In this document: piece by piece, positions 6,840-54,616 of the stretch
Layout: each line of letters opens with the position of its first letter
Position numbering within the stretch: the stretch's first letter is position 1
NCBI GenBank assembly: GCA_963971425.1
Contig: OZ020519.1
Location: forward strand, 4,852,028 to 4,916,027
Origin: Bryoerythrophyllum caledonicum
Lineage: Eukaryota; Streptophyta; Bryopsida; Pottiales; Pottiaceae
Direction of reading: 5' to 3'
Length of the DNA: 64,000 nucleotides
The notes under the pieces: generated by a model
What the model was told of the DNA's origin: nothing
The model's input: only the letters and a program-made list of their open reading frames with translations
Database searches by the model: none
Made by a program: the position numbers and the translations under genes

Positions 6840-7575
6840 TGTGGCGGGGTGGCACGGCCGCCCCCACCGCATGCTTCAATACGGCAGAATCGGGCGGGGT
6901 TTCCCCGTGACAAGGCCCCGTCGACGGGGAACTTCGGCAGTTCCCCGGGGCCCTGTCTCCACACAAGACCTAGCCTGTGGCGGCCAGTGCCACCACTGGC
7001 TGGCTCACGGCCTGCCGCGGCCAGTGGCTGGCGAACGGGCTGCCAGTGGCTGCCGCGGCCAGTGGGCCACGCAATAATAATAATTTTTTTAAATTTTTTT
7101 TTAAAAAAATTTTAATTTTTTTTAATATTCACAGTTCAAAGTGCACTGAAGTGCACTTATGTTTTTATTTTTATTTTTGTTTTTAAAAAAAAAATTAAAA
7201 ATTTAATTTATTTTTTATTGACAGTTCCAAGTGCACTTCAGTGCACTTCATTGCCTCATCTTATTCTCTTTTTTTTTCCTTTCTTTTATTTTTGCTCGCC
7301 TTAACTATTAAAGAACTCCTTTCCATCATTTTGCTTCTCCGTTCTTCATTATTATGGAAACCATAATATATTTACGTTATTTGCTTCACGTAAACCACTT
7401 TCCCCTCACTCTTTCTTAAAACTTTCTTCCTAGAGAATTATTAAGTTTTAGCAAGAAGCATATTCATGTGGTTCAATATTGGTTTAGGGTAACTACTATT
7501 TGTTCAAATTAAGGTTTAGGGTTACTTTTGCACGGTTCTTTTAAGTGTCCACATTGTTGACGTAGATCCCCCACT

Positions 7576-8052
7576 ATGACTTCTACAAATGCTCCCAAAG
7601 CTCCCCGGGGCACCAACTTCACGCCAGATGAGTGCGTGCGACTATGTCGTGCCTGGGTTACTACCTCCCAAGATTCCGCAAGAGGTACGAATCAACCTCA
7701 GGAATCGTTTTGGGAGAAGATTAAAAAGGCGTACGAGAACTTGGAGCCCCGCAATCCTGAGCTTGCGTCTCGGGGTGCGCGATCTCTTGATACGAAGTGG
7801 CAAGAGATCTCCAAGGACGTTTCTAAGTTCACTGGTTTCTACGAGCAAGTACTGCAGATGAGGAAGTCCGGCTGGAATCAAGAAGACGAAATTCGAGAGG
7901 CAAAGAAATTGTACTTGGACTTTTATGGTGGAGGTGGCGAGAAGAAAAAAGCATTTGGATACATCGAGTGCTGGCAATATCTTCGTGACAAGGAGAAGTT
8001 TAAGGCTCAAACCGTAGAAGGAAAGAGAAAGATTGGCACGTCGTCTACGTAG
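7576..8052 (+). pseudogene. Harbinger Myb/SANT-like DNA-binding protein, 5' part
   Basis: This encodes 158 residues starting MTSTNAPKAPRGTNFTPDEC. The trihelix/Myb-like part has the usual tryptophans and spacing: FTPDEC..LCRAWV, SFWEKIKKAYE, RGARSLDTKWQEISKDV. These proteins help PIF/Harbinger transposases bind the element ends and enter the nucleus (family knowledge). The frame ends at TAG 8050-8052, just where the MULE target duplication starts. The frame continues after the MULE at 27043 (QEPEKEG...), so TAG is an internal stop in the ancestral ORF. It is present in both copies of the target duplication and so predates the MULE insertion. Confidence 0.75.
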
Positions 8053-8057
8053 CAGGA
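8049..8057. other. Target-site duplication of the MULE, left copy
   Basis: GTAGCAGGA here is repeated exactly at 27040-27048; a tenth base (G) also matches. A 9-10 bp duplication is the Mutator superfamily norm. Confidence 0.9.
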
Positions 8058-8118
8058 GGACGAAGCTATTTTGCGTGCCTTGAGTCGTGAGCCATGAGCC
8101 GTGAGCCTTCTTTCGCGA
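8058..8118 (+). repeat. MULE left terminal inverted repeat
   Basis: Matches the reverse complement of 26980-27039. Shared core AAGCTATTTTGCGTGCCTTG, then CGTGAGCC-type repeats. The first bases diverge slightly (GGACG versus GGGGGA). Confidence 0.85.
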
Positions 8119-8184
8119 GCCTTAAGCAATTAATTTGGACCGTTTTTGGAAAAGAATATCATTAAAGTGAAAATAAAAGTAAAC

Positions 8185-8330
8185 AAAAAGTTGTTAAAAA
8201 AATGAAAAGTAAAAAAATGAAAAGTAAAAAAATGAAAAGTAAAAAAATGAAAAGTAAAAAAATGAAAAGTAAAAAAAAAAAAAATTTAAATGAAAAGTAA
8301 AAAAAAAGCTAAAAAAAGTAAAAGTTTTCC
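8185..8330. repeat. A-rich 15-bp tandem repeat (GTAAAAAAATGAAAA)
   Basis: About five copies of GTAAAAAAATGAAAA between ~8206 and 8275, degenerating into poly-A. It lies just inside the left MULE end. No gene. Confidence 0.8.
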
Positions 8331-8576
8331 ATAAATTAACATTTCAATTGAAAGTCTGAACCATCGTCTGAGGATAAGGGCCTACTATTGTGGAATTCCT
8401 TAGAAAGTATGGGTTGTTGTCCAAATAATGAATTGTCATGAAGATGATAGGTACCCTATGACCGTGTAAGGGTTACACAACATATTGTAATAGAAGGCGT
8501 ATCGATATCATATGTAGTATTAAAAACTAGGAAATTAATTCCACACTTCACTAGAGCAGACGAAGAAGCCTTGAAT

Positions 8577-9392
8577 TTAACCCATAAAGGACCAAGACAT
8601 TTTCCCCTCAAAGTCAATCCAAAATTGCCATTTTCAACGCATTCAACACGAAATGATACAAAATGTTTTTTCTGAAAATTTAGCCGTAGGATCTTGTACT
8701 ATAGTTGTATGAGAGTGTGTGGTGAAAAGTTTGGTAAGTTTGACCGCACGGATTGAAAGATATCAGCCTTTAAAGTGAGACATAATCTCTTTTTGAGGTC
8801 ATCCTAAACACCTTCTACAAACTTCGACCACCTTCTATGGCAACTTTTTGCACTACGGGCCGTGAATTTATTATGTTGGCCTGAAAAGGATCATGTTAAG
8901 CACATATGCACCAAATTTTAGAAGTAGAAGAGGTGTAGAAGATGTCCTAAAAAATCCTACATTGCAGCTATGTGCTGAGAATCAACAATACATTTTATAT
9001 TTTGCATATATCATATCCTTCTCAAATTTTTGAAATTCACAAATCCGTACGGTAGATGCAAAGATCTCAATTTCTTTTCAAAGAGGACATTTTCTTTCTT
9101 TTATATGGACAAAAACTCGAATTTCTATTGAGTTTAGAAGTTATTAAAGTTTAGTGACAATATTTGTGATATGTCACACTAAACTGCTGCACTATTTGTA
9201 TATATAAGTGAAAATAAATTGTAACTTTTGAACCGTAAGTCGGAATTCTAAGAAATTTGTGTCTACGCAAAGTTCATCAAAAGTTGTCCATTCAATAAAA
9301 ATTCTCAGAAAATAATGCCTAGAATTTAGAACGTGGTACCTTACCCAAACTCAAAATGTCCCCCGAGGGGACTTTGGTCCTTTATGGGTTAA
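8577..9392. mobile_element. TTAA-ended MITE-like element, copy 2 (inside the MULE)
   Basis: The left end TTAACCCATAAAGGACCAA and the right end (reverse complement TTAACCCATAAAGGACCAAA) are almost perfect terminal inverted repeats abutting TTAA. It is 816 bp long with no coding capacity. Its ends resemble those of the elements at 4264 and 38875, but the interior differs. It inserted into the MULE, so it is younger than the MULE at this locus. Confidence 0.8.
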
Positions 9393-9476
9393 ACATGCTT
9401 TTACTCAAATATGATCTAGGTTTCTTAGAAGATGTGAAGCTTCCTTGACCCTACGCCTCTTCACTAAGGGAGGTCT

Positions 9477-9833
9477 CTAATATCTACATGTCATGAGCAC
9501 TGATTCGGAATGAATAGGGCGGTGTATAGGCATGTCGGATCTTTCTTCCTCTCCAATGGAATAATCTTGGTGTTTGGAAGGAATGCTATATGCAGTACTC
9601 TTCTTGAGAAGAATTGTTCCCTCACAATCACACTTGGGCTCTACAACGACCACTACATTGTCTTGCCTCTCCGCATTGCTCGCATCGGCCATACCTGTGA
9701 GAAGTGCTTCATCCGTACAACCTTGTTCATCCTGATCTTCCCTATCAAACTCGTCTAGCAATTGCTCTAGCAACCCTGATGGGATGTAGACATCTACGAG
9801 GGTGACAATCTCATCTTCACAAAATTTAGCCAT
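9477..9833 (-). CDS. Small acidic ORF of unknown function in the MULE
   Basis: A 118-residue frame starting MAKFCEDEIVTLVDVYIPSG. It is acidic (LLDEFDREDQDE) with a hydrophobic VVVVVEP stretch and one CDC motif. I recognise no family. It lies between the young MITE and the methyltransferase gene and has no paralogue in the window. It may be an exon of a passenger gene or a chance frame; its composition is more protein-like than neighbouring short frames. Confidence 0.3.
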   Translation of the reverse strand: MAKFCEDEIVTLVDVYIPSGLLEQLLDEFDREDQDEQGCTDEALLTGMADASNAERQDNVVVVVEPKCDCEGTILLKKSTAYSIPSKHQDYSIGEEERSDMPIHRPIHSESVLMTCRY

Positions 9834-12359
9834 TTATACAAAACTAGTACGTAATGTTCCTCTAATACATTGTTGTAAACCGTCACACTAGCAATTAAGG
9901 GAAGGGGATGCAATCCTTATAGGTAGGGAGTCTTTTAATTTGAGGTAGACATTTATTTTAGGTCAAACCAATGTAGTACAAATGGAAGGATCCTTACACC
10001 ACAACTAAGGTGGGCCAATAAAACCTTATCGATTATGCCACATGGACTTGCAAATTAGTTAAATGTTAAAAAGGAACACAAACAAGACTGACAACAATCC
10101 TAGGAAGTTGAAAATCAAGTGTCGGGGGGAGGGGCGGCGACACTCCAACATAGAGTGTTTTTTTTATCAACATCACGTCCACCGGGTGCACCTACCTTGT
10201 GGAAATTTTGTTGACGTGGACAACACCACGAGCGGCGGTGCTATTTTCATTGAAAGCAACCGAAGAAGGAAACAACTCAACACTATCTTTGTTAACCCTG
10301 AAATCTTAAACCATGTCCACAATTCCAGGGATTGAACTATCTCGAACATCGCCACTAGCTACCTGCTATAATACAATAACATGGAAATACAAGAAGGCAA
10401 AGGGAAAAATTAACATAGAAGGTGACTAAATCTAGGTGAACAAAATAAGCATGTAAAGCGGCCCGACGGGGGCGCTGATAAGCAAGGCTGTTGAGGCCTG
10501 TGAGGAAGGAAAATGAAGACGCACAATTTACTCCCTAAGGTACCGTGAGAGTTTCACATCAAAAACACTTCAAAACTATTTAATTCAAATGCAATGAATT
10601 AAGAAGGAAAAAAAAACTTTCATTTCTAGTTTTGACCAAAGGCTCTCAAATACGACTTAATAAGCAACATACTCACAGAATTTCATAAACTCTGTCCGCA
10701 CGGATTGAAAGATTACAATGTTGAAAGTAAAACAAATGGTTCATTTCCTTTCTTGCGTTGAGTGGATCAACAATGTTTGACTTCACTTGGTGTCAAATAT
10801 TTGCACTACTCAAAGTATAAATCCATTACCATTGTGTTGAGCATGATGTTAGGGAAAAGAAGATTTTTTTAATGTGGAAAAGAAGAAGTTTTTTTGGTAC
10901 CGACAATGTGTGACAATAGAGTTTTCATGAAAGTACTTAGGGTTTAAACCCTGACTGTCATCCCAAAACGCTGATAGGGGTTGTACACGTGAAAGTCCAC
11001 TTGTTTTTGAGAAACATGGTGGTTTGGTTAACTTCGGGATTTATTCCATAAATTATGGTCCTTTGTCAGCCAACCAACATGCTACAGGGTTAATCATCTA
11101 GGCCCAATCACCGTCCAAACATAGATGCAAGGTGGCATTGGTGACTCCAAGTTACCCAATTATAGTGGGGGGTCCCAAGGCCTCGTTGTATGGGGACCCA
11201 CAAAGCCCTTGGGGGAGATGACATGTCGGTTGTCTCTAAGGCAATTAGTGTAGGGAACCACTTAGATTAGAAAAGTACTTACCCTTGGGAGGGGGAAGCA
11301 GTTCTATTACACTAGCCTATGTCCCGTGGCCATATGCATAGTGAAGAGAATGAACAAAGTTCACTATATTCACGGCAATCTCCTTTGGAAACCGGAGTTC
11401 TTCTTCTTCTTCCTATTTTTAAATAAAGACAAAAATGTATTTTTACATTATGAAGGGAAAAATATTACTTGGTAGAATTGAAAATCTCACATTCAATAGA
11501 GAGTTCATTCAATAAAGTTTTTTGAGGTGCCCAAAGTGCCTGCTCGCCCCATTTCAATTTTGAAACCCTATAACTTTTTCATTAAATGTCGGATTTACTC
11601 AAAAATTGATCTCCCACCGAGGACTTAGTAATGTCCTTCTACAGTAAATCTTTCAAAGTAGATGGTTGGAAATTGACACCAAAGAAACCTAACCAAACTT
11701 TCCAGAAGCCTATTTTTTATACTTGGTCCTTTAGGGGTTAAATTGGTCTTGAAACCGTGGCATATTAGAGTACAATTCTAGATGAACGCACCATGTATTT
11801 CACGGCTTATTTTATTTGTGGAGGAACTCATATGTTGAGATTTTAGTATGCTTTACACTTATAGTTAGAACGGGTGGTAGTAGAGATAAATTGTCAATCC
11901 ATTTCCTTGCTGAAATTCTGTCAAAATTATTTGACTTTCAATAAATTGCAATTCGTCGATTGGCATAATATATATTTCTCGACACCATTATAAAAGGTCA
12001 TCATCTCCATTAGCACTCAATTATTACATGTGTTCTTCATGAATTGTTATGGATTTTATTGTATAAACATATGTAAGGACAAAGATTTGAAATCAAATTG
12101 TGTAGGTTGGAGTCCCAACTCTATTTCGACCAAGTTATGTCTTATAGTTACCATATTTATTTGACCAATGATAAGGCTTTAAATGACAACCCTACAACTT
12201 ATGCAAACCAACTACAACGACAACGGCTTTAGGTTGAGTAGAGCAAAGAACAAGGAAAAGAAGGGGTATTGAATGAGAGTATTAGCAAAGCAAATAGAAT
12301 ATCTACATTAGTGGTTGAAAAATATTGCAAATATCTTGGATTATAGGAATGTTTGTTTA
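9834..12359. other. MULE interior without recognised gene
   Basis: No supported gene. The word CCGCACGGATTGAAAG near 10687 also occurs in the 8577-9392 MITE, which suggests another decayed member of the same non-autonomous group. A right-end-like GGTCCTTTAGGGGTTAA at 11725-11741 supports this, but no matching left end was found. Confidence 0.5.
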
Positions 12360-14876
12360 TCATGACATGTCCTCAGAGCTTCCGCACGACGTAGAAATTA
12401 CATGCAGCTCTACGTCAGCCTCATCGTCAATGAATTGAAGAACACGCAGATCAAGTGAACGTTTTCTACTTTTAGAACACGGGGATGATGCAGCTGCCTG
12501 CCTAAGGGCCTCTTCTGCATGCCATGGAGCCATAATGAAGTCTCTAGACGGGAAACAAACGTTGGACATCATTCTGCAAATGCCACAACCAAAGTAGAGG
12601 AAACGTGAGGTGTCATTAGAGGTTAAAATATGAAACATGAGAAGGTGACATTAGAGTCCACATTACTCTACACATAGGGCTAGAAATTTGAGCACAATAA
12701 GGTACAAACTTTGAGAATATTTCCAAATCAAAGATGGTAATTGATTGAAAGATAGAAGGAGCTTACGTACTGAATCTATTTCGCTTCGCCACCGGTTGGA
12801 TTTGGATCTCGTCGGCAAGGCAGGGACTAATGGACGAGGACGTAGTAGGCATTGGAGTATCACGCGGAACTGCACGAAGAGGCTTCAACATGGCCTCAAA
12901 GACGTCATTGTCTTGCTCCAAAGCCACAATGTGGCGCCCAATGTCCTTGCATGCCTGAATAGAATTTCCTGACAAAAATGAAGTTAAGAGAATTGTTATT
13001 GTTTAAAATCGTGGATGCAAATTTAATGGAATAAAGCATATCAAAAGTATTACCTGTGGACGCGAACGCATCAAGGACAAGTGAGCCCGGCTTAGTAAGA
13101 GCTACAATGAGCATTCGGAGAACGACAGTATCTTTTTCACGGGGACCCCTCCATGGGACGTTCCCATTCGTAGACTGCGACTCCAGGGAGGTGTAATTGA
13201 AAATAACATCAGAATCACAGACGTCTACGTTTAATGCCGAGAGTGTCTCATCTGGCGCAATGATGAAATCATCCGGCTGAACTACCTTGGGCATGAATAA
13301 TTGAACCCTAAACCGCCGTGACTGCCAAAAATGAATGATAAAAGTGAGAAGAGTGTACAGAAGTTGAGAGGAATGTGTAGCAACTAAAAATTGATGATAA
13401 TGAAGTTAGTCTGTTACCTTTATTTTAGGATCCACACTTGAATGCAGCGGAAGCTCGTTTATACCCCACCACTCCCGCAACATGTAGAAATCGTACGCAT
13501 CGGCGTAGCTCAAAATATCGGTTCGGACCTTGGGACATTCAGGTGCAAAGGCTAGAATACTACCGTGACGGTGAAGAAATTCATGCCCAAACTCGAAAAC
13601 AGACTCAACATCCTTCTTGTTGTAGTTGTTCCATGTAGGAACGACAGAAGGCTGTATGGATATTGAGGGTACGGGCATCCCATCAGGGAAGTCTCCGATG
13701 ATGAGATTGAAGCCACCGTGCGGGCAAACCTCCGAACGTTTCAAGGTAGTGGTCAAAGCTTGTTTCTGCAAGTAGGATTAAATCGAGGATTAAACCATGC
13801 ATGGAAACAAAAGAACAACAATTGAACATTGGTAGTCTTACCTCCATGCAAAACTTGTTCATGTTAGCTAGAACCGGGTGCACTTGCGGTAGAACATCCA
13901 TTATCTTTGTGAGGCTCGTGTTCTCAATAAGCGTTGAGGACACGAAGTCCACGCCACGCTGTTCGGTGGATTTTCGAGTGGCCATCATCCTCTTCAATCT
14001 TTTGAAATCCATGGATATAGGACTAGTCGAGTCTATAAGCTGAGTATGAGTAGCGGGGGAGATAGAGAAACCTTGCTGAGTCTCGGGGAGTGTCGCAAAG
14101 AAGGATGCCTCTTGAACATCATGATCATCGTTGCCATCGAAGGGCAAAGCAGCATGTTCTTGTTGCCGTCTTGGTGCTGAGTCTCTTGCTACGAGCTGTG
14201 CTTCCAAGGCTGCTGCTTTGCGTGATGCCGTTGCCTCCGCCGCATTTGCGGCCTGTAGCTTCCGCGCCACCTCTTCTTCGGCCTCTTTCAACTTCCTGGC
14301 GACCTCTTCCTCAGCGGCTTTCTTCTTCTTTGCATCTTCCTCGGCTGCCTTTTTCCGTGCCCCTCTAGTCATCTTCATGGGTTCTGTCACAACCGAGACC
14401 AACTCTGTTCCTGCTAGAGCAGGCTGAATTGAATTCCGCAGTGGAATGTCAAACAAAGGAGGTCTACTCTTGGGACAATCTAAGTACCATCCACATTTCT
14501 TCCAGTGCTCCCTATCCCAGTCTTTCATATTCTCCTCAGTGAACATGCAGCTGTCACTAGTTGGATCCAGGTAGTTTGCGAAGAAAGGGGGAATTCTTGA
14601 AACTGCCTTCCTGGGAAGCAACACATAGTGGAAATACCTGTATAAAGTTCGATTGACAGCCTCAGCCAAGAATTTTTGCTCAACTGGAGTGTTGTTTTTA
14701 GAGACACCCTTGGTTGCCAACTTAGTGTTGAAAGCAATCTCCCAAAGGTGAATGCGCATCTGCTCAACCCAGTCAATAATAGTTGGAATGGCATCCTCAT
14801 CAAGTGGGTGATAGTTGACAGTCTCGTTCAGTTCAACCAATGTTCCATGAAGAAGATCGCTTGTTTCAGAAGAGAT
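12360..14876 (-). CDS. Methyltransferase-domain exons (5-9)
   Basis: All five exons are open and join in phase. Exon 5 (ISSETSDLLHG...) includes a long Ala/Glu/Lys coiled coil (VARKLKEAEEEVARKL). Exon 6 has the motif IV region NLIIGDFPDGMP, then helix VFEFGHEFL and strand GSILAFAPE. Exons 7-8 join GPREKDTVVLRMLIVAL, KPGSLVLDAFASTG and NSIQACKDIGRHIVALEQD, which is the FxGxG/motif I and motif X layout of beta-class N4/N6 methyltransferases (motif IV before motif I, Pfam PF01555-like). The usual DPPY tetrad reads DFPD, so activity is uncertain. The tail (exon 9) has a basic KSRKRSLDLR patch that may be a nuclear signal. Confidence 0.72.
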
Positions 14877-14961
14877 CTAAAATCCCACATAAGGCATAAT
14901 TTTAAGACACATGAAAGTATTAAACATGTGAAAATTGAAAAAGGTATCTAAGTCAACACAC

Positions 14962-15450
14962 CTGTGCCCACCAAGTAGCCCGAGTTAGCCAAATGGGGAA
15001 GTCGTGGTCGTTGAATTTGGTCTCAGGAAATCTTATAGCTTTTCGAACAGAGGGCTTCATGTTCCACCGCTCAAGCCACTTAACCTTCATCGTTGCGGAC
15101 ATCGTGGATGTTGCCAAGTAGAACAACTTCTCTTGCGACATCTCCCGATCATCTTCCCGCTTTTCGTAATGGATTTTAACCTGATTGAGAAAATCAGGAG
15201 TGTGCTATGGATCAGAAGGTGGCAACTGCTTCTTCACCTCAGTGACATAGTCCTTCTTCACCTTCTTCACCTTTTCCAAAACTTCGTGGTGCAAATCCTT
15301 CCTGTTCCACTGAGCTGTCTTTTCTGGATACTTCTCAATGAACATTCTATTGGCATGCACTGCTGCTTCACCAATCTCTTGCTGTACATTTCCACGAAAG
15401 ATGTCAGGAATGAGACACAAAAATCATTAGAAAACCCTATACAAGAGACT
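14962..15450 (-). pseudogene. Exon 4 of the ParB-methyltransferase gene, with stops
   Basis: One frame reads PDIFRGNVQQEIGEAAVHAN, a charged helix (EKVKKVKKDYVTEVKKQ), then after TAG (15205-15207) HTPDFLNQVKIHYEKR and a Trp-rich end WLTRATWWAQ at a clean CAG|GTGTGT donor (14962/14961). Adjacent TAA and TGA lie at 15424-15429 in the same frame. The acceptor is uncertain; TCTAG or TATAG just upstream of 15440 would fit. No known domain is recognised. Confidence 0.5.
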
Positions 15451-15539
15451 AGAGAACTACTAGAAGATTCTCCAACAGATAGTGCCGCCAATTGTACCAT
15501 CCTTGAAGGGGGTTAGAGGGAGGAACCCCTTGTCACTCC

Positions 15540-16265
15540 AACAGTGGCGCCGCTAGCGGCACCCCTTTTCAGACTACCCCAGGGTACCTAGCAGCCTCTA
15601 AAATAGTTAGTGCCGCCAGCGGCATTTACTCTACAAGATGCCTTGAACAAATCACTTGCACCTCTAAATGGGTGAGCTGCTGGCATCACTCCTTCTAAAG
15701 TCTGTCTCAAAGAAGCCATTTATACCAGAAAAAGAAGGTGCTGCCAGCGGCACTCTATATATCGGATGCCTTGAGCAAGCAACTTGAACCTCGTAAAGGG
15801 TGAGCCGCTGGCAGCGCTTCCACGAGAGGCTGCCTCAAGAAGCCGTCAACATCCCAAGAAGAGGGTGCCGCCAGCGGCATTAACTCTACAGGATGCCATG
15901 ACCAAACCACTTGCATCTCTAAAAGAGTGAGTTGCTGGCATCACTCCTTCTAAAGGCTATGTCAAAGAAGCCATTTACACGAGAAAAAGAAGGTGCCGCC
16001 ATCGGCACTCTGTTTATTGGATGCTATTTGCAAGCTACTTGAACCTCGTAAAGGGTGAGCCGCTGGCAGCGCTTCCACGAGAGGCTGCCTCAAGAAGCCA
16101 TCAACACCCCAAGGAGAGGGTGCCGCCAGCGGCACCCTCTTTATGGGATGTCTTCAGCAAGACACTTGCACCTCCAAAATGATGAGCCACTAGCAGTTCT
16201 ACCTCTGGAGGCTGCCACAAAATAGCTTTAAGCATTCTGTAAAGGGAGTGCCGTTGGCGGCACTC
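15540..16265. repeat. Intronic higher-order repeat with 16-bp palindromes
   Basis: Palindromes GTGCCGCCAGCGGCAC or variants start near 15547, 15610, 15738, 15865, 15993, 16120 and 16248, a spacing of ~128 bp from 15610 on. Successive 128-bp units alternate between an A type (CACTCCTTCTAAAG...) and a B type (GCAGCGCTTCCACGAGAGG), giving a ~256-bp higher-order period. Each unit also has a half-palindrome such as GAGCCGCTGGCAGCGC. The array lies in the intron between exons 3 and 4 of the methyltransferase gene. Confidence 0.85.
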
Positions 16266-16388
16266 CCTTCAGGAGCTGAAGATGGCATACATCTACCTCC
16301 ACAAGCCATTTTCAAGGAGAATGATCAAACATTTGACTAATAAAAGTTGTCAGATAAATAAAATGTAGATCTAAGAGGTGAATAGTAC

Positions 16389-17436
16389 CTGTTATAGTAC
16401 TCCAACAAGTCCTTTAACAGTAAGCGTGTACCATGTTGGAGTTCTATCCTGTTTTGCAATCGCATCATCAATTTCAGCTTTGGTCACAAGGTTCTCAAAA
16501 TATGAGAGGGGTTGCCCAGCAATTCGTTGAATTCTATAAAGCTTGTGGACTAGATTTGATTTCACGTGGCACCTCTGGTTACGCCTGCATATGGAGTGGG
16601 TGGAGTTAGAGGACAAAATAGACAAATTTAAAAATATTTAAAATTTCAAGAAATCAAAACTTACCAATTGACTTGGTGGAGTGCAGTTACGAGAGGTCCT
16701 GTCGAACCTGTTGGAACATCCAAGATAATCGACTCCACTGCGTAATGCCAATCTTTGTCATCACCGTGGTCTCTATTGATGATCTCCAGCCAAGCTTTGA
16801 GACGATGGTTCCCATCCCAAACATAGAACATCTTACCCGAATACTTCATCAAGTCTTCATCTGCGAGCAACTGTGCCTCAAACTCTTCATTCTTCTTCTT
16901 CCACAATGGACTCCATCCAAGAATAATCTCCTCGCTAACGTCAAGTGTCTTTCCCTGATCATTTTGCAATGCAACATAGAAAACGCCATGACCCTCCATG
17001 TATCCGGTACTCACGAAGTGAGCCCCTAAAGAGCTGACGTCGTTTGAGAGGGGCGGCCTCACCGCCAATACTTCCTTCATTCGACACAGTGGGATATCAA
17101 TCTTGGACTTCTTCCGTGGCTTCATCCGTAGCTTCTCCAGAACAAGACTTGTGTTCACAGATTCCTGCAATACTAGTGTATCCATCTCTCTCCCCAAATC
17201 CTCAGCTGACATTTCCACCCGAAGATCATCATCGACGTTCTCATCCTCCAAATTGATCTCATTGTCTTCATCTTCATTGTGATTGACCCCTGCATCTAGA
17301 GATAGGTTAAACAAATAGTAGAGAATACTGAACCGCTTCCAACAATTCAGTTGCATTTGATACCTGAATTTTCTCGAATTGGAGGTTGCTTGTCGTCTAC
17401 TTGGTCGACTTCGCATTCCACGCCCTCAAGCTCCAT
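16389..17436 (-). CDS. ParB-like domain exons (1-3) of the methyltransferase gene
   Basis: Exon 1 encodes MELEGVECEVDQVDDKQPP and joins in phase to the acidic start of exon 2 (DAGVNHNEDEDNEIN). The core motif is GKMFYVWDGNHRLKAWL, matching the ParB/Srx-fold signature (hydrophobic strand, D-G-x-H-R, helix). It is followed by strand VESIILDVP and then LHQVNWRNQRCHV across the exon 2/3 junction, where ParB-type proteins have a helical continuation. The exon 3 junction is TG|G, giving Trp. Exon 3 ends in a frame that needs a 1-nt correction near 16406 before the donor at 16388. Exact function is unknown: ParB-fold domains include DNA-binding CTPases and nucleases, and the motifs here do not distinguish them. 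Confidence 0.65.
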
Positions 17437-17818
17437 ATCTGCAACAAAGCATTCAGGTTAACTATAAATTTAACAGTGGGACAAACAAATAGTCATTGAT
17501 GATATGATTATATGAAGGAATAAGTGCATGCATATTCGTCAACATCAAATCACAAATAAACATCACTGGTTGCCTAAATATTCTACATGCATGCAGTTGA
17601 ATTTAATCATTAAGTGGTTCAGCTCTCTAATTGACAATTCAAAAACCTGAAAGATCTCAAGTGAAGTGACCCTGAAATGAAAGAAGGTTGAATAATCAGC
17701 AAACCCAAGGTACGAGCCTTGCTGAACATGCCTACAAAAATTAAGTGAAACAGTGCCAATATGCCAAACACATGCATATTGGGAACACTCACAAGTTTGG
17801 GAGGACCCCGTGAAGGAG

Positions 17819-17834
17819 GTGCCGCTAACGGCAC
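17819..17834. repeat. Palindrome GTGCCGCTAACGGCAC
   Basis: Variant of the intronic palindrome. Its context (ACCCCGTGAAGGAG before, TTGCTT after) is shared with the copy at 18494-18509. Confidence 0.8.
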
Positions 17835-18064
17835 TTGCTTTACAGGAGTCCTCGAATAATTCACCTGCCCGTCTCAACAGTGATCTCAAAATTAATAACC
17901 TTGAAACTTATGATCTCGAACTTGTGATCTCGAACTTATGATCTCGACTCATCTCATCTTGAAGTTATGACCTTGAACTTATGAACTGAAACTTATGTTC
18001 TTGAACTTCTGTAATGATCAAAAACTTATGATGTGAACCTCGACTCATCTCAACAAAGCGTTTC

Positions 18065-19200
18065 AAAATTCCAGTTCACAAGCTAGATGCTACGGTATCT
18101 GACTTCTACTGCAGTATCTGACTTGCACGATAATCTACATAAAGTCCTCTACTCATCTCATTGCAGTATTATCAGTATTATCAGTATTATACATGACGAA
18201 GTATCCTACAGTATCATGAATATCAGAAGTATCATGAAGTATCTTCAGTATTGCACATGAAGCAAGAGCCGAGAACACAATGTTGGAAATGCACATGACC
18301 ATACAAAAAACGATAACAAAAAAGTTCAAGATGCACAGCATAAACTTCTAGTTGTAACTTGAACTTCTACTTCTAGAGTGGACTTCAAATACTAGTTGAC
18401 TGTGACCGATTGATTTATGAACATGAGACAGAAAAATACGTCACTCTACTCAGTACCAACTGCAAACTTGTTAGGTAGGACCCCGTGAAGGAGGTGCTGC
18501 CAGCGGCACTTGCTTCACAAGTGTCCTCGTACAATTCACCAAACCGGTCATCAAACCACTACTCCATTAATCCACTGCTCCATTAATGATTTCTAAACGA
18601 GAGGCATATCATCCCTGATTTAAGTGAAAGTTGTGGCAACCACGACTTAATTTCAGTCGTGGTTTAATGTATCTGAAGCACTGTCACCGTAGGTGTCATG
18701 ACTCATAAAGTTCGATATCTCCTTCAAGACATGCCAGAAAGCAACCTGATAGTTGAAACAAACGGAGTGTGTCTTCCACAACACCGCGACCTCTCACTCT
18801 AATGTAGACCTTACGGTGACTCAAAATAATTATACATTCTTCAGGTACAAAAATAATATAAGTTTCAGATCATAAGTTACAAGAGTCTCATAAGTTATGC
18901 AGTATCATCAGTTTCAGATCATTATAGCCTCGACTCAACTCAACAGTGCGTTGCACTAGAATCTGAACTCAACTCAACGTTGGACGATAATCAGAACTCA
19001 ACGTTGCACGCCCAACTCAACAGTTAAGGTATGTGACTTCTACTACAGTATCTCACTTGCTACACGATAGTCCACTACTCATCTCATTGCAGTATCATCA
19101 GTATTGTTCATAAAGATGTATCATGAAGTATCATGAATATCAGAAGTTATCAATATCATAAAGTATCTTCAGTATTTCACATGAAGCAAGAGTTTGTATC
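18065..19200. repeat. Duplicated block of TATCATGAAGTATC repeats
   Basis: About 18075-18270 and 19015-19195 are diverged direct copies: GACTTCTACTGCAGTATCT, ACTCATCTCATTGCAGTAT, repeated TATCATGAAGTATC words, ending CACATGAAGCAAGAG. The block between holds the 18494 palindrome and AT-rich DNA. No gene. Confidence 0.7.
18494..18509. repeat. Palindrome GTGCTGCCAGCGGCAC
   Basis: Same flanking context as 17819 (GGACCCCGTGAAGGAG), showing local duplication of ~70 bp with the palindrome at its centre. Confidence 0.8.
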
Positions 19201-20030
19201 ATGAGTTTCTTCCAAAACACATTATTTCTAGAGCTCCAGATTCCTGTCAACCTAGGCTCAGAGTTCAAGAGAAAAAAAACGATAAAATAATCTTCACCAT
19301 CATCGCCGAGAAACTAGCTTCTTGAATCATGTCAAGTATGTCACCGCAGATTCATGAGTTTGAGTCATGAATTTCTTCCGAAACGCATTATTTTTAGAGC
19401 TCCAGATTCATGTCAACCGAAGCTCAGAGTTCAAGAGAAAAAAACGATAAAATAATCTTCACCATCATCGCCGAGAAACTAGCTTCTTGAATCATGAGTA
19501 TCTCACCGCAGATTCATGAGTTTGAATTATGAATTTCTTCCGAAACACATGATTTCTAGAGCTCCAGATTCTTGTCAATCCAACCTCAGAGTTCAAGGAA
19601 AAAAAAAAACGATAAAATATTCGACACAATCATTGCCGAGAACCTAGCTTCTTGAATCATGAGTAACTCACCGCAGATTCATGAGTTTGTATCATGAGTT
19701 TCTTCCAAAACACATTATTTTTAGAGCTCCAGATTCTTGTCAAGCTAGGCTCAGAGTTCAAGCAAAAAAAAACGATAAAATATTCTTCACCATCATCGCC
19801 GAGAAACTAGCTTCTTGAATCATGAGTATCTCACCGCAGATTCATGAGTTTGAATCATGAATTTCTTCCAAGACACATTATTTCTAGAGCTCCAGATTCT
19901 TGTCAATCCAACCTCAAAGTTCAAGCAAAAAAAAACGACAAAATATTCTACACAATCATTTGCCGAGAACCTAGCTTCTTGAATCATGAGTATCTCACCA
20001 CAGATTCATGAGTTTGAATCATCGACTCCA
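19190..20030. repeat. ~164-bp tandem array, five copies
   Basis: GAGCTCCAGATTC recurs at 19231, 19397, 19559, 19724 and 19887 (spacing 162-166 bp). Each unit has AATTTCTTCCGAAACACATT, GTTCAAGC + A-run + CGATAAAAT, ATCGCCGAGAAACTAGCTT and TCACCGCAGATTCATGAGTT. No coding potential. It lies in the MULE between the two genes. Confidence 0.9.
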
Positions 20031-20219
20031 AACAAACGAATAATTAGTGAACCTACATCTTCACATTCTTAGTTAGGTATTCTAACTCAATTCAAGGGTT
20101 TCTGCTAGAAGTTCGTCTGCACCAGGATTGCTAGAATATCACAGTTTTAAATCAAGCCTGAACATAACGTTGTTGCAGTAGTTCAGGTAGATTCCATAAA
20201 CTAGTAACTAATGAACTTT

Positions 20220-20600
20220 CATAAACTACCTAGTTTAGACCTTTTCAGACCTCGTTCAGACGTTCTTAACATTTAGTTCAGACTTAAGTTACATTCATAA
20301 ACAACCTCTTCAGACCACGTTCAGACCTTCTTTACATTTAGTTGAGACTTAAGTTACGAACAGACTTAAGTTACATTCATTAACTACCTCTTCAGACCTC
20401 GTTCAGACTTAAGTTACATTCATTAACTACCTCTTCACACCTCGTTCAGACTTTAGTTGCGAGGATAATCTAGACCTCCCAGTTTTGAAAGAGGATATTC
20501 TAGACCTCCCAGCTCAGACCTCCGTTATGTTCAGACCTCTTCAAACTTCTTAAGACCTCGTTCAGACCTTCTTTACATTTAGTTCAGACCTTTGAAGTAA
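20220..20600. repeat. Irregular CAGACCTCGTTCAGAC repeat
   Basis: Many copies of TTCAGACCTCGTTCAGAC, ACTTAAGTTACATTCAT and TTTACATTTAGTTC in irregular order. No gene. Confidence 0.75.
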
Positions 20601-21420
20601 AGATGTATGTGGAAACATACATAATCCAAATAAGTAAGTCTTGCAAAACAATGAACTGACCTGCCATGGTAACCTTCACACGCGATGAGTTTTGCTTCCA
20701 CCGTAGCTGCGTCTGAATCTCTCCTTCTTCGTCTGCGGCAACAACAAGAGTTCAGTTCCCTCCTTTAAACCTCCACACCTCTCCCTTGCAAATCAACATC
20801 AACAAATTCCAAGTTCCAAACCCTATTCCAAGTTCAAAACCCGATTCCAAGATCTAAGTTGAAAACCTAACTTCAGAACCCTTCTAGTAGTAACTTGTTT
20901 TAATTATAAACTCTGACTGCGAGCATCCTTCCTACTTCACTGTCAACCACGACCTCAAACACGACTGTGAGCAACCTTCCAACTCCACTCTCAACAACGA
21001 CCTCAAACACCAACAACAGCATTGACCAAACCCTATATCAGCCGCCTAATTCTGTAAACTTCAGAATGAAGAATCACACATGCTGATAATGAAGGAAAGT
21101 ATTCATCCATCACTTCAATTTCCAAAAACACGACTCACAATGTATTGGAGAGCCACCAACATTACTCGCAAACATCTCCAAGCTTGAAAATGACACAAAA
21201 CTATAAGCTGAAGTTATATCTTCGAAGCTGCAAATGAAAACTTCTCAATCTATGGATTTCTTTGACTTCTAAACAATATGAGCTAAACACTTTAGGGTTA
21301 TGTCATCAAGGACATGGATCAAAAACTTCTTGTTACCACTTCTAGTTCTCACGGTGTAATTTAGAGTCTCTAGATATCTTGTCGCATATATTGACTTCAC
21401 ATGTTCTAATGTCTAGAAGG
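20601..21420. other. MULE interior, no gene recognised
   Basis: AT-rich sequence with AC-rich simple stretches (CTCAAACACGACTG words near 20950). Nothing supported. Confidence 0.5.
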
Positions 21421-21801
21421 TTAATAATCATACAGTACATTATCTGATTGTAAAGAAGGTTGCCTTGAGTATGGGTCTCCAGATGCCATGTCTACTTCGA
21501 GTGCTATGCTGCGACTCTCGCTTCTACTAGGGGATCTATGTTCCAGTTGTCCTAGGCCCTGGACAATCGCGGGAATACTTTTGAGGTCTAGATTATCCTC
21601 TCGACTCATTTTCCCAGTTTGAACAACATGATCGAAGAACTCTAAGACTTTCGCCGTCTCACCAATCTCTGCAACTCTAGCACTCTGCTTCTTTTCTCTC
21701 ATCACTTTGTTCCTCAGCATGGTCTTCCTATTACTGAAACAAAACTTCTTCTTTGGCATTCTCTCACAATGACTCACTAATTTGCATCCTAGCCAGACCA
21801 C
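21421..21801 (-). CDS. Small basic ORF upstream of the transposase, unknown
   Basis: A 126-residue frame; the inner Met at ~21759 (MPKKKFCFSNRKTMLRNKVM) is the likelier start because it opens a strongly basic, nuclear-signal-like segment. Then come a helical stretch (AKVLEFFDHVVQTGKM) and a Ser/Arg-rich tail (RSPSRSESRS). It runs divergently from the transposase, whose ATG is ~580 bp away. No family recognised. It may be a third MULE gene or an exon of one. Confidence 0.35.
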   Translation of the reverse strand: MVWLGCKLVSHCERMPKKKFCFSNRKTMLRNKVMREKKQSARVAEIGETAKVLEFFDHVVQTGKMSREDNLDLKSIPAIVQGLGQLEHRSPSRSESRSIALEVDMASGDPYSRQPSLQSDNVLYDY

Positions 21802-22376
21802 TTAACCTATCGAGGCAAACGTATCTGCCAGTAAACCACATCACCAACAAAAGATATTTGACTCAGCTGCAATCAAGATTTTCCATACTTAACTTATATT
21901 GCCACCGCAGCCACCTCCTTAACTGAATAAATGATGGACCCTTGGCGAGATTTAAATTACTATGCATCCATCACCTCTAACTGAATTAGATAACCACAGT
22001 TCCTATTCAAACATATAGCCGTCTTTAGATCACTTTATTGGACTTACGTCCAAGATGTATCGTATTTATTGTAATCTCCTAAACCGTCCAGCCCGCCAAA
22101 TGGGATCCCAATTCTTAATTGTAATCAATATCTGACGTTGTTCCCTACTGATCCAAAATAAGAGCATAGAGTGCGTGACTCAACTTAACACACAATGGCA
22201 CCATTGAGAGCCAATTATCAATTCTCGCTCTATTAAATAGATGCATTTTACCCCTGCGTTTATTACCACGTAATTACCTCGACCTTCAGGCTCTCGTAGT
22301 GAAACCCATATAAGCCTTCACATTCTCTTGTTTTCTCCTCTTCAAACTCTGTTGTGTTAATGGTCCGGTTATTGTC

Positions 22377-25300
22377 ATGGCTACTATTGAGGATCATCTT
22401 AGCCAGAGTGTACTTATTCGTGGAGATGTGCAGGAAGTACCTATCTCATTCGATCTATCTGAAGATGGATACGCTGTTGTAAAGTCTAGTCGACTAGCTT
22501 CAAGATTTCAGCTAGCAGAGAGAGGCTTGCACATTGATAAGGATGTTCATCATAAGGAAAGTGGAAAGATTTCCCATACTATAGCTCAGATCTCTAGTAT
22601 TTGTGAGGATTGCGAAGTGTGGTTGTTGAAATCAGGAGAGTATCGAGTGTATGGGACAAGGATTAGTGAATCCGGTACTCCATCTGTAATTTTGACGCCT
22701 AGACAATCCTCAACTGTTGAAGAGGTGACACCGCTCTTGTCTAAGGTGAAAATTGAACCCACTGAGGATACCATCCTTATTCTCAGTGACGACTCCGACA
22801 CAGAGTGCTTTCCTAGTACCCCAATTAGCACATTTCCAAAGTCGGAGCCTAGCCCTCACATTCCGATTGCGACTCTTCCTATTTCTGCAGGCCCTTCTCG
22901 AATGAAACCACCCTTTGTACCGTCCAGACTAGCTCCTGCTAGTATAGTGGAATGCCTCCAAAATCTCAGCACTCGTCAAAGAGCTAGGTCGGTATTGAGT
23001 AAATTAGATTATACTTCGATGACAATAGAACAGGTGAACGTCCTTCCTATTACTTTTGACGGTGACCGGATCTTTGAGCTTCCCTCATTGGGTAACTACA
23101 CGTGATTGTCTAAGGCTGGACTTCTGGAGGGGATGGACAAAGCTTATAACGGTAATGCCTGGACCCGGACAGTCACGTCCCACATTAAGTCCGAGAACAA
23201 CCTCATGTTTAGAATGTCCTCTTGCTTGGGGAATCTCCAATGCACCAATCCCACTTGCGACTACCTGAGTCGAATCCATCGTACTTCTCCAAAGAATGAA
23301 ACTGAATGGGAGGGCACCGCTGACTCTCCTTTTAATCCTGGTTGTGACCCCCCTCTTAACTCCACTGTCGTATGTTCGATATGTCGGACCCCACCTACTT
23401 GCTTAAAAACGTGCCCCGCTAAAATTTACTATGTCCTTGGCCAGAGTCATCAGAGTCGAGCGTGTATCCATCTGGGATTCCACAGTCATTTAGTTAGGAT
23501 GGGAACTTGCATGGAATCAGCACACATACTCAAGACTCGCATCGCAGAGCAAGTTGAGAAGACACCTACCGCAACAAACTCGTCAATTGTCCTTGAGGCG
23601 AGCAAGGACTATCTTGGAGAGTTACTTCTCTGCCCTGATGGTGTTACAAAGAAGACGTTGAGTTCTGTTGAACTTGTCCCACTCCTAGACAAATTCAAGC
23701 AGATGTCTTCTCCCAGTATCCGGAACGAGGTGACTACTTTTAGGCACCTCCGCCGTTATGGTGAACAGGATAGCATCACCAAGCTCAGAGGTTCCAGCAA
23801 CTGGGCCTTTGTACAGGAAAATCGCTTTCCGGGGTAAGGTAAAGAAGATGACAAGGTATTCATATTCAAGATGTCAGAATTGGGACCAGCGAGTGGCGTC
23901 GACCTGGTGAATCGAATGCAGCCTGGAGGTGATTTGGAGGAGTCGTGGATGATGTTTGACCACGTCAAGCGCCACAAGACATGGACTACAATGGCATGTC
24001 ATGTGTACGACTCCACGTACTGTCGAGTGATGACAATTGCTGTGTGCGACATGATGTTCGAAGACGCCAATGCCCAAGTGCTGTTCTGGAAGAATCTCAA
24101 CGCAGTTGCTGCTCGTTACGACATTGAAAATCCCAATTTTAAGGGATTCATGGCTGACAGCGCCCAATCGAACTGGATTGCAGTGCGCATAGTTTATGGA
24201 AATGGCGACAAGACGGTCCCCATGCCCAACCGAGAACGCACGTGCCTTTTCCATTGGATCCAATCTTTGGAAAAACACACATAGGCAGATATCAGGGCAG
24301 ACCTACGCGATCAACACAAACGGCTCTGCAAACAATATAAGGACTCTAAGTCGATGGAAGAGGCTGAAACAAAGTACCTTGCAATCCGCTCATGGTGGTT
24401 ATCATCAGGAGCAGCAACAGAGGAGGGTCTCCCACGTCTTGATCTGTGGCTCGCGTTCTGGCATTTTCGATACAGACAATGGGGGGGGCTTTATAGAACT
24501 CGTAAGTCTTCTGCACTTGTTATTCACCTTCATATTTTTTTCAGCCTTACTCTTTTCTTGTGATCATGATTACTCCGTGTATCCTTTTATAAAGGTGCTG
24601 CTAACGGCACCACCTCCAAGGTGGTCATTGTAAGAGTGTATGGTGACAAACCTTGAGCGGTGCAGCTGGATGAGTTTCCAAACATTTTTCACATGTATGC
24701 CACGTCACGTAATTATTATTTGGAGCTAACATCTTGTGGTCTTCGCAGAATATGTCCCTATCAGAGTTGGCAGAGATGCCTTCCTGCAATCTTGGCGAAA
24801 CCATCCACAACAAGTGGTTGCAACAATCAGGCAAGAGAGGCAATGATTTGTATGTGGCTACCGTCGATGACATGGTACGTGCCTTCATGCAAGCTGTTGC
24901 GTACTATCAATTTCTAAAGGGTGAGAAGGCCGAAACCGGACCAACCAAGGAAGAACTTCGACTACGTACCGCCCAACGTACAGCAGAGCGGTCTGGAAAT
25001 GCAAAAGTTCTCCATGCGGCCCTCGCCAACATGCCTGGCGCTGCCACCTTCTGTACTCGTGAACCTCATCTTGAAGGTGAGGGAGTCTTCCTATCTCTAA
25101 AACGAAAGGCTGACCTTCCTCCAGGTTCAGAATTCGACTCCCACCGACCTGATAAGATTAGTGTATCACGGCCTCGGGTCAGAACACGACAAAGTAATCG
25201 CAAAATAGTGGACCTGACCAAGGAGGACTGCCCCCAGGAGTTGGATGTAGTGCCAGAGGTTGAAGACAACGTCCCGTCCAAGACTCCACCTTCTTCGCCT

Positions 25301-26201
25301 TGAATTCAGCATGTCAAAGCAGTTCGAGAGATTGTCTGCAATGAAAGGCAGTGGCATATCGCTAGACTCCATAGCCGATCTGCAAAAAAATGTTTTGCTC
25401 AACAAGCGCAAACGAATAAGAAATGCGTTGCCACGATCATCCAAGATGGTAAGCCCACCGCCGCCCCTACGTACATTGGTATCATGGATAACTTCAGGAA
25501 GGCAAGAGAAGAGATAATGCAATTTTTCTTTTGCAACGACGACATTGAGCGATGTGTGAAGGGCACAAGACGGAGGTGGGTAATGACCAGGCCACAAGTA
25601 CCAGACGTGTGGCCTATCAAGATAGGAACGAACCTCACAAAGAAGGAGATTTTTAGCCTTGGAGAATGCAGGTTTTTGCCTAGCTAAACACGTGGAGCTT
25701 TCCCCTCGAAAGCTTTTTGTTGACGAAGTGGCCTCCCTGGACCTCAAGGCCTATCCTACTCCTTCCAACCCTGACGAGCACCCTAAGAAGAGGTATGGTA
25801 AAAATATCCGTAGGAACGCCAATGCACCTACTACTAAGCAGCTCAACAGTTGCGCTTCTGCATTGTCTGTTGTTGGTAAGATTTGTAGGATTCGTATGGT
25901 TCCTCCTAACGCATTGGGTTGCATTGTCACCTTCGAGTCCAAATCCATATCACAAGTATCAAGGTATTTGGTTACCATTGGATAGTTTCCAAGGTGCGAT
26001 TGTTCAGCGTTTACAGAGATGTCGAAGAAGTCACTTGGAAAACGTGGGGCGTGGACCTACTGTAAGCATTTATACTACATCCTCAACATTGTTTGTGGAC
26101 TAGATCCTGAGGTAGATGTCTTCATCCACAGTCCTAGTTTTAGCTGGTACGAGATTATGCGGATTCTCCAAGTTCTGCTTCTTAAACATTATGGTCCTTA
26201 G
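22377..26201 (+). pseudogene. MULE transposase with C-terminal SWIM zinc finger, inactivated
   Basis: The main frame starts at ATG 22377 (TATA-like CATATAAG near 22308) and can be followed to 26201 through stops at 23103 (TGA), 23835 (TAA), 24282 (TAG), 25301 (TGA) and 25983 (TAG), frameshifts near 24485 (G run) and 25655 (extra G), and one intron (donor GTAAGT at ~24503, acceptor TTCGCAG before 24750). Order: N-terminal region with the SUMO-interaction-like ILILSDDSD; a Cys-rich zinc module (CTNPTCDYL, CSICRTPPTC); a catalytic-type segment with GFMADSAQSNW and RERTCLFHWIQSL; a Trp-rich helix block (LWLAFWHFRYRQWGG); a second SIM-like IVDLTKED; and a SWIM finger, CDC...CKH (CxCx(n)CxH), at ~25995-26070. 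SWIM plus the 9-bp duplication supports the Mutator superfamily. I recall similar proteins from non-seed plants. Confidence 0.8.
24595..24610. repeat. Palindrome GTGCTGCTAACGGCAC
   Basis: Another copy of the MULE-specific palindrome, here inside the transposase intron, some 6 kb from the nearest other copy. Confidence 0.75.
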
Positions 26202-26979
26202 TAATCTCAAGTGTATCAGAACTTTGTATTGTACTACTGTTCATTTATGAGAATGCTGTGAGACTACAAGGGCCACACCCAGTGAGTTTTAAATAACATA
26301 CCTCACTACTCTAAACCCTGCATGCACCATTTGATGATGGAAAATACTTCCCCGCTACATTACAGCCAATGCCCTCATCTATATCACTTTCTCTTGTCCA
26401 TCCACGTCCTAAATCCTCAACCCTAAATCCCACCCATACCTACTTCCTATTCTAAATTCTCCTTCTCCCTATTTATCCCTATTCCAAACTCTCCATGTCT
26501 CTACTAATCTCAAAGTCTGTCTCTTATGCAGTCCCTAAACCTGCTTATCCGTGTCCATGAAGTCTCTTCATTGTAATTTCCCTTATCCTCAATTCTCTCC
26601 ATCCTGAACTTTCCGATTGTCTTATTGTCTTTATCCACAAATCTCATTAATTCTCCGCGACCATAGAATATTCCTCTCCAAAATTGTCCCTAAACTAGAC
26701 AAGGGCATCTCCTTAATTGTCTCTTTCCAGACCTCTCCCTCACCGTAATCATCCACATCCGGACCTCTCCTTCTCCCTAACGATCCATAAACCTAAAACC
26801 TTTAGTTCTTTACATGCAAATGTACGGAGTGTTCCATCGTAAATTTTTACAAACATAACTATAAGCACTGAAACTTTTGCTATTTAATCCACGGTAATAG
26901 GTCCAATTTTTATTCTAAAATTAGAAATATCTTCATTAAAAAATACTATCTTTTACTTTTTTCTCTAACTTTTTGGCTT
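26202..26979. other. Pyrimidine-rich right subterminal region of the MULE
   Basis: From ~26340 to 26800 the + strand is strongly C/T-rich and G-poor (TCTCC, CCCTA, ATCC words). No gene. It precedes the right TIR. Confidence 0.6.
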
Positions 26980-27039
26980 TGGGCTCACGACCAAAGGCTC
27001 ACGGCTCACGGCTCAAGGCACGCAAAATAGCTTTCCCCC
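26980..27039 (-). repeat. MULE right terminal inverted repeat
   Basis: The reverse complement begins GGGGGAAAGCTATTTTGC and matches 8058-8118, with three GTGAGCC-type repeats inside. Confidence 0.85.
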
Positions 27040-27048
27040 GTAGCAGGA
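27040..27048. other. Target-site duplication of the MULE, right copy
   Basis: GTAGCAGGA, identical to 8049-8057. Confidence 0.9.
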
Positions 27049-27594
27049 GCCTGAGAAGGAGGGATCAAACATTGTAGCACATGCGAGCGGAGTGGAGCGC
27101 CCTATGGGTAATAAGAAAGCGAAGGCACTTTTGAAGCTCGATGTGATTGCAAAGAACCTTGATGAAGACTTTAAGATTGCCACAAAAAACTTAGCAACAT
27201 CACACAAAGATAGAACGGCGGAGATGAAGATTGCAAACATGAGGAAGATCTTCAAAGAAGACTTGTCAAAACTAGATCCTGACGCCGCTGAATACTTCAC
27301 CTTACTCCGCCAGAAAGCGCTCACAGAACTAAAGGCATCTATGGCCGCTTCTACAACTGCAGAAGCAATTGTTCCCGCAATTGAACCTGCAAATCCCAAG
27401 GTACAAATTCTACATTCTATTTTATTATAACTTCAATGCTAATTACATTAACATATCTACCAAAGATATGTCTTCTTAGCGTACTTCTTTTTTGATGTTG
27501 AGACTCTTGCAAGCGATCGAGATGATGACTCTCCAGAGGTCACAGGGGTCGTTCCTCCACCAGCAGATGAGGACTGTACTGGTCCCAGCAGAAG
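27040..27594 (+). pseudogene. Harbinger Myb/SANT-like protein, 3' part
   Basis: Continues the frame of 7576-8052: CAG GAG CCT reads QEPEKEG, then PMGNKKAKALLKLD and a Lys/Glu-rich helix ending KASMAASTTAEAIVPAI, donor CAAG|GTACAA at 27400/27401. A second acidic exon at ~27480-27594 (DVETLASDRDDDSPEVTG) follows an acceptor-like CTTCTTAG and ends at GAAG|GTATCT. The layout (N-terminal trihelix, GxKxAK motif, C-terminal helix) matches the NAM-associated C-terminal domain of PIF/Harbinger Myb-like proteins. Disrupted by the MULE and by the TAG in the target duplication. Confidence 0.7.
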
Positions 27595-54613: not shown

Positions 54614-54616
54614 GGC

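Follow-up and report, generated by a model that had tools for sequence, protein, structure and literature searches.

A 64,000-nucleotide stretch of the 437-Mb genome of the moss Bryoerythrophyllum caledonicum (C7, positions 4852028–4916027; hereafter the window), eukaryotic by its content, was found to contain an 18,980 bp DNA transposon of Mutator-like (MULE) type. On the strand opposite to its transposase the transposon carries a nine-exon gene for a protein with a predicted ParB/Srx fold and a methyltransferase-like domain. The gene is a resident of the transposon family rather than a one-off capture and is under purifying selection, and a parS-like palindrome, GTGCCG-N4-CGGCAC, recurs in the non-coding DNA of the element. 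In the reading that we favour, with a probability of roughly 0.5, the protein would bind these palindromes, thereby recognize copies of its own element and act on their chromatin or transcription, by analogy with the VANC proteins of VANDAL MULEs.

The element, its gene and its family

The element begins with GACGAAGCTATTTTGCGTGCC... and ends with ...GGCACGCAAAATAGCTTTCCCC (coordinates of all features are given in Table 1). Its terminal inverted repeats (TIRs) measure about 49 bp per side and share a core that is common to the subfamilies; an 11 bp target-site duplication (TSD), CGTAGCAGGAG, flanks the element on both sides. When close copies were compared, similarity on the right ended at 27038/27039 in four of them and at 27050 in a fifth. 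A 165 bp tandem array lies between the two genes of the element (19190–20022) and differs in length among copies.

Both TSDs and TIRs were thus found, as in the Mutator superfamily, for which TSDs of 8–11 bp are the rule according to the accessible text of PMC6446971. No Pfam MULE profile was matched at E ≤ 10 by two open exon-1 transposase proteins; a genome search with PF10551, in which 150 of 384 candidates were scored, matched other loci and not the window transposase. The MULE label therefore rests on the TIRs, the TSDs and a DDE-like motif layout recognized by eye. Exon 1 of the window transposase contains three in-frame stops, and the corresponding frames are open in other copies (749 and 757 amino acids).

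The exon set of the ParB-methyltransferase-like gene was recovered identically by a spliced aligner with the 1,124-codon protein as query. Exon lengths were unchanged in five of six close copies, the exception (c90) being decayed by gaps, stops and frameshifts. The window copy itself is disrupted by an in-frame TAG at codon 355, a position that is open in five of the six close copies (c90 is decayed there). Eleven spliced predictions reached the gene end (window, c98, c97, c94a, c94b, c91, c90, g64b, g64c, g64d and g64e, with uncertain first exons in the g64 copies), six of them free of stops (c94a, c94b, c91, g64c, g64d and g64e). A further member, m57, for which the gene sequence only was retrieved, has one stop, and the gene of g63a is interrupted by a nested sibling element, the gene of which is d37. 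At L019+L020 (G000:C12:12592540–12612539) a much diverged sibling sits in the ParB-methyltransferase-like gene of another member; the ParB-methyltransferase parts there are 34–35% identical and FDCQEN stands at motif IV.

Selection was estimated by the Nei–Gojobori method from the pair c94b and c91, both open, since synonymous sites are saturated between subfamilies and only within-clade ratios of nonsynonymous to synonymous rates (dN/dS) are usable. The whole gene gave a dN/dS of 0.166, with 0.046 for the ParB part, 0.107 for the methyltransferase part and 0.153 for the middle; transposase exon 1 gave 0.179.

The genome holds at least 149 relatives of exon 2 (149 scored of 1,761 candidates) and at least 150 transposase copies (150 scored of 2,061). 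Within the clade of the window element all 20 listed gene copies were accompanied by a divergently oriented transposase at a distance of 6.3–11.3 kb, and 20 of the 24 closest transposases were paired with a gene copy. At least 50 of the remaining 129 listed gene copies were likewise paired, a minimum, as neither list is exhaustive (the transposases of four g64 copies, for example, are unlisted). Three further arrangements of gene and transposase were seen within 25 kb. A passenger or captured host gene was ruled out by the pairing of all 20 listed close copies together with the purifying selection.

Termini were checked in 12 elements, namely the window element and eleven others. Both TIRs were matched in ten, with direct repeats at the ends and TSDs that differ; exact terminal direct repeats measured 9–12 bp in nine elements and 7 bp in one, a count that tolerated shifts of up to three bases and possibly includes a few end bases of the TIRs. 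In c94a and g63a the right TIR only was found, and not the left. Four 12.2 kb g64 copies, on C7, C8, C10 and C11, are near-identical (16–18 pairwise differences among the three of equal length) and have different target duplications; the family has therefore moved recently, carrying the gene.

These results bear on an earlier, sequence-only reading of the window. The nine-exon gene opposite the transposase and the peptides quoted from it are present, and the MULE-type termini are borne out by the TIRs and target duplications, with the name MULE left without a profile match for the transposase. The interval 12360–17436 given there is the extent of the gene; the element itself runs from 8059 to 27038. 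Other elements with matching TIRs likewise carry the gene. That reading mentions neither the in-frame stops in the two genes nor the palindromes nor the algal case already in print.

Domains of the encoded protein

An AlphaFold (AF2) model of exon 2 was generated from a deep alignment and reached a predicted local distance difference test score (pLDDT) of 82.8, superseding a single-sequence model (pLDDT 36). It matched PDB structures of ParB, Noc, PadC and Srx and, on the strength of this model, the N-terminal domain has a ParB/Srx fold. A profile of the ParB part retrieved 569 environmental relatives at E ≤ 10. No ParB Pfam profile was matched by five members at E ≤ 10, no ParB-part relative was present among 41 pattern matches in viral contigs, and plasmids and phages gave weak matches only (2 and 10 records, E 1 to 9). 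A desulfovibrio phage protein of 449 amino acids, the one match inspected, had by eye no ParB feature.

Homology to beta-class N4/N6 methyltransferases was found for exons 6–8, in which the motif order is permuted, the motif IV region coming first and X-I-II last. PF01555 was matched by four of five members (over the last quarter of the profile in the member shown) and PHROG DNA methyltransferase families by all five. Profile matches to PDB entries were obtained for DpnA (E 7e-5) and CcrM (E 8e-4), and alignment to enterophage methylases with hhalign gave E 1e-6 over 64 columns. The matched region was the X-I-II segment throughout, except that the CcrM match started earlier. The methyltransferase part alone gave no homologue among candidates of 0.55–1.75 times the query length, a range that excludes full-length relatives; the full-length profile gave none, relatives being found with the ParB-part profile only. 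In viral contigs the methyltransferase part yielded one canonical phage methylase among 69 pattern matches.

The elements of the S-adenosylmethionine (SAM) site, D..A..G in motif I (DAFASTG in the window copy) and the E of motif II, are invariant in five members. We take D..A..G to be a pattern of other SAM enzymes, and SAM binding may therefore be retained.

At the motif IV position the window copy reads GDFPDG. One comparison of subfamilies gave GDFPDG, ADIPDG, ADLKDG and FDCQEN; further readings were GDLKDG, ADIPKG, GDIPEG (L048) and IDQPFE (L043, read from an open frame and not from the spliced alignment). A (D/N/S)PP(Y/F/W) motif IV (DPPY, NPPY or SPPW) was absent from all eight subfamily sequences read. 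The first D alone is invariant, the place being summarized as D[FILC][PKQ][DEK], with DQPF in one subfamily. Among the 150 scored of 235 PF01555 candidates in the genome, all 24 matches at E ≤ 0.1 began at profile position 151 or later; a canonical DPPY half was not encountered. When the motif IV half was aligned to phage methylases, the score did not exceed chance (it was equalled by 21 of 100 column shuffles in local alignment and by 87 of 100 in global alignment), and in a MAFFT alignment to the same proteins this half was judged to be misplaced and was rejected. The assignment of motif IV is therefore positional: it relies on where the motif lies within the domain, on the one invariant D and on the subfamily with DQPF. 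For that subfamily (L043; G000:C9:14278700–14280400) the genome search with PF01555 gave eight matches of nearly equal score, which suggests another young group.

The ParB/Srx-like context and the permuted beta-class order proposed in the sequence-only reading thus agree with the model and the alignments. NLIIGDFPDG as a working motif IV is not supported, the catalytic DPPY-type motif being absent from every subfamily sequence read; as motif IV is not of DPPY type, methyltransferase activity of the protein is doubtful on present sequence grounds.

Palindrome arrays and their possible function

The palindrome GTGCCG-N4-CGGCAC occurs 11 times in the window at up to two mismatches, always within the element; shuffled sequences were expected to contain 0.54 sites and none of 100 reached 11. 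Seven sites lie in intron 3 of the ParB-methyltransferase-like gene, two between the genes, one in a transposase intron and one, with two mismatches, in transposase coding sequence. By the same measure seven elements of the clade carry 9–11 sites each, and in six of them (those with the exon end located) a site lies about 107 bp past transposase exon 1. The four g64 elements carry five sites each, four of them exact; in g64b the exact sites form two pairs, an intergenic one with a spacing of 128 bp and one in the transposase intron with a spacing of 126 bp, and the non-coding DNA that bears them has no blastn match to the window. One relaxed site lies in intron 3 of m57. A stricter form, GTGCCGCNNGCGGCAC, at up to two mismatches was found 7–10 times per clade element and four times per g64 element; the flanks had none in eleven elements and one in c98 (the left ends of c94a and g63a are not fixed).

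Genome-wide, 719 exact GTGCCGCNNGCGGCAC sites were counted, against five for a reversed-pattern control. The first 50 of the 719 were surveyed for clustering and fell into about 15 clusters or single sites. Three clusters were examined, chosen because each holds several sites and has no gene copy or transposase of the lists closer than 25 kb. In all three, every exact palindrome lay between exon 3 and the exon detected next in an additional ParB-methyltransferase-like gene, 44–57% identical to c94b over segments of at least 100 residues.

GTGCTG variants at 15738, 18494 and 24595 are C-to-T changes at CpG, as expected from deamination of 5-methylcytosine, and the length of intron 3 differs by 255 bp between c97 and c98.

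We favour self-recognition through the palindrome, at the probability given at the outset. The ParB-fold protein would bind the arrays, which lie in intron 3, in the transposase intron and upstream of both genes in the region that they share. Once bound, it would act on the chromatin or transcription of copies of its own element, as VANC does on VANDAL MULEs; anti-silencing would, by that analogy, be the outcome. Because the DPPY-type motif is missing, the methyltransferase-like domain would more likely add a further binding module, for DNA or SAM, than work as an efficient methylase.

Several points weigh against this proposal. The four sites of g63a at up to two mismatches (among them one in intron 3, one intergenic and one 84 bp past transposase exon 1) include none that is exact, and the stricter pattern gave none there. 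Intron 3 of the g64 elements is short and has no site. Two of the roughly 15 surveyed clusters lay by eye near listed copies and three were examined, leaving ten outside the sample. The 127 bp array may multiply sites by repeat expansion and so inflate the counts. In four of five elements the overall number of dyad-symmetric 18-mers was close to that of shuffled sequences, the excess in m57 being mostly a TA run; the signal is therefore that of one motif and not of palindromes generally. The DQPF subfamily, finally, may still be an active methyltransferase.

Bacterial ParB clamps spread along DNA. The element might possess a ParB-parS-like system of its own, with loading at the arrays, possible spreading and an altered methyltransferase domain that holds or reads DNA, by which it is marked as self and escapes silencing; this fuller scheme is tentative, and we would expect it to fail rather than to hold.

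Active self-modification, that is, ParB-guided N6-adenine or N4-cytosine methylation of the element for marking or evasion of silencing, had been put forward in the sequence-only reading and was also proposed by the Ectocarpus authors, in the accessible text of PMC12477816. It draws on the X-I-II homology in all five members, the invariant SAM-site elements, the purifying selection on the methyltransferase part and the one subfamily with DQPF, closer to DPPF/Y. It has to face the absence of DPPY, NPPY and SPPW from the eight subfamily sequences read and the start of every scored PF01555 match at E ≤ 0.1 beyond the first 150 profile positions. The homology stands and the catalytic motif is missing, so that encoded self-modification is possible but unproven, and we consider it rather unlikely.

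A role as transposition cofactor, in which the protein binds the internal sites and helps to assemble, license or immunize the transposition complex, or nicks DNA, would suit the tight pairing with the transposase and the palindromes within the transposase intron; a ParB-adenine methylase fusion of B. cereus is reported as a nickase in the accessible text of PMC5512222. The sites are nevertheless concentrated in introns and in the upstream region common to both genes rather than at the TIRs, and such a role appears distinctly unlikely. Least probable of all is a palindrome that serves not this protein but the transposase, a host factor or an RNA hairpin of introns or leaders: GTGCCG-N4-CGGCAC could form a hairpin of six base pairs closed by a loop of four bases, and several variants, being C-to-T changes, would keep G-U pairing on one of the strands, but the sites are intergenic and in introns of both opposite-strand genes, where only a DNA dyad would be strand-neutral.

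Surroundings of the element and known systems

Table 1. Positions of the features within the window.
Feature	Position	Strand	Basis or remark
Whole transposon, MULE-type	8059–27038 (18,980 bp)		TIRs and TSD; edge of similarity in copies
Left TSD, CGTAGCAGGAG	8048–8058		
Right TSD, CGTAGCAGGAG	27039–27049		
Left TIR	8059–8107	+	Inner edge approximate
Right TIR	26990–27038	-	Inner edge approximate
ParB-methyltransferase-like gene	17436–12360	-	Nine exons, GT/AG introns, 1,124 codons plus stop
Exons 1–9 of this gene	17436–17364, 17295–16665, 16584–16401, 15381–14962, 14876–13842, 13765–13418, 13321–13054, 12968–12767, 12573–12360	-	
Exon 2, predicted ParB/Srx-fold domain, DGNHR core	17295–16665	-	AF2 model and PDB matches
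Exons 6–8, beta-class N4/N6 methyltransferase-like domain	13765–12767	-	PF01555, PHROGs, PDB DpnA/CcrM
In-frame TAG, codon 355	15207–15205	-	Disrupts the window copy
Seven palindromes, 127 bp tandem array, intron 3	15547–16263	+	At most one mismatch
Two palindromes between the divergent genes	17819–18509 (17819, 18494)	+	
Palindrome in transposase intron	24595–24610	+	About 107 bp past exon 1
Transposase gene	22377–~26000	+	Exon 1 ~22377–24490, next exon from ~24752, 3' end not fixed
PIF/Harbinger parts	7561–8052, 27050–27430, 28997–29680		Open reading frame, Myb-like by eye (first); transposase (third)

The element is inserted inside a PIF/Harbinger element, the transposase of which matches the Pfam profile Plant_tran (E 9e-67). 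The Myb-like open reading frame (ORF) of the latter is broken by the MULE-type element and continues past 27049; the TAG of this frame falls within the duplicated target site. Farther to the right, 34877–36601 holds a 574-amino-acid ORF with an N-terminal part that is P-loop-like by eye and about six 27 bp repeats, which could be a nucleoside triphosphatase of mobile or host-effector type. An unbroken polyprotein frame of 1,801 amino acids, Ty3/gypsy-type by eye, occupies 54614–60019, with near-identical 114-amino-acid ORFs on both sides (52582–52926 and 62114–62458) that may mark its long terminal repeats.

Genes of this kind are already known, ParB-methyltransferase transposon genes having been reported for Ectocarpus. 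According to the accessible text (Genome Biol 2025;26:320, PMC12477816), Sola1-1_Ec32 is a 21.5 kb DNA transposon that encodes, on the strand opposite to its transposase, a 1,104-amino-acid protein that unites a ParB-like domain and an N4/N6 methyltransferase domain; its authors mention further cases in green and red algae and propose self-binding and modification. Compared by description, the two elements are alike in the pair of domains, in a protein of about 1,100 amino acids and in the opposite strand. They differ in that the Ectocarpus element is named Sola1, whereas the moss element has 9–11 bp TSDs and MULE-type TIRs, and that text makes no mention of a palindrome array, a motif IV change, copy pairing or a selection test. 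No other title on a ParB-methyltransferase gene in a eukaryotic transposon turned up in a literature search that left most subscription journals uncovered and did not include the palindrome. Added here are a host element of MULE type, the altered motif IV, the evidence from selection and pairing, and the palindrome arrays. For the algal proteins a role had been suggested; here, in a large, recently active family, with the gene under selection and the fold supported, a specific palindrome that marks the genes offers a concrete, testable cis target, and the motif IV change gives reason to doubt simple self-methylation.

The ParB part shares 9–12% identity with bacterial ParB/Noc proteins (PDB entries 7bm8, 6sdk and 7ol9), here within a nuclear eukaryotic transposon. 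With DpnA (5hfj), CcrM (6pbd) and the enterophage methylases (SfV, mEp460) the moss protein has the motif order and the X-I-II segment in common; it differs in a motif IV that is not DPPY, in a half that cannot be aligned above chance.

A close parallel in layout is offered by VANDAL MULEs. In the accessible text of PMC5735166, VANC21 of Arabidopsis VANDAL21 binds a short motif whose tandem repeats, variable in copy number, lie within introns of two genes (VANC21 and VANB21) and upstream of the transposase gene VANA21. The layout that both appear to share is an accessory protein, the DNA-binding VANC in VANDAL, together with a clustered motif in the element's own non-coding DNA; the 255 bp difference in intron 3 between c97 and c98 is part of this likeness. 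Unlike VANDAL, the moss element has a 16 bp palindrome and a protein that combines a ParB fold with a methyltransferase-like domain. If the proposed binding is true, bacterial-style DNA recognition would operate inside a nuclear transposon, and anti-silencing systems of MULEs would have evolved repeatedly, each time from proteins unrelated to the others.

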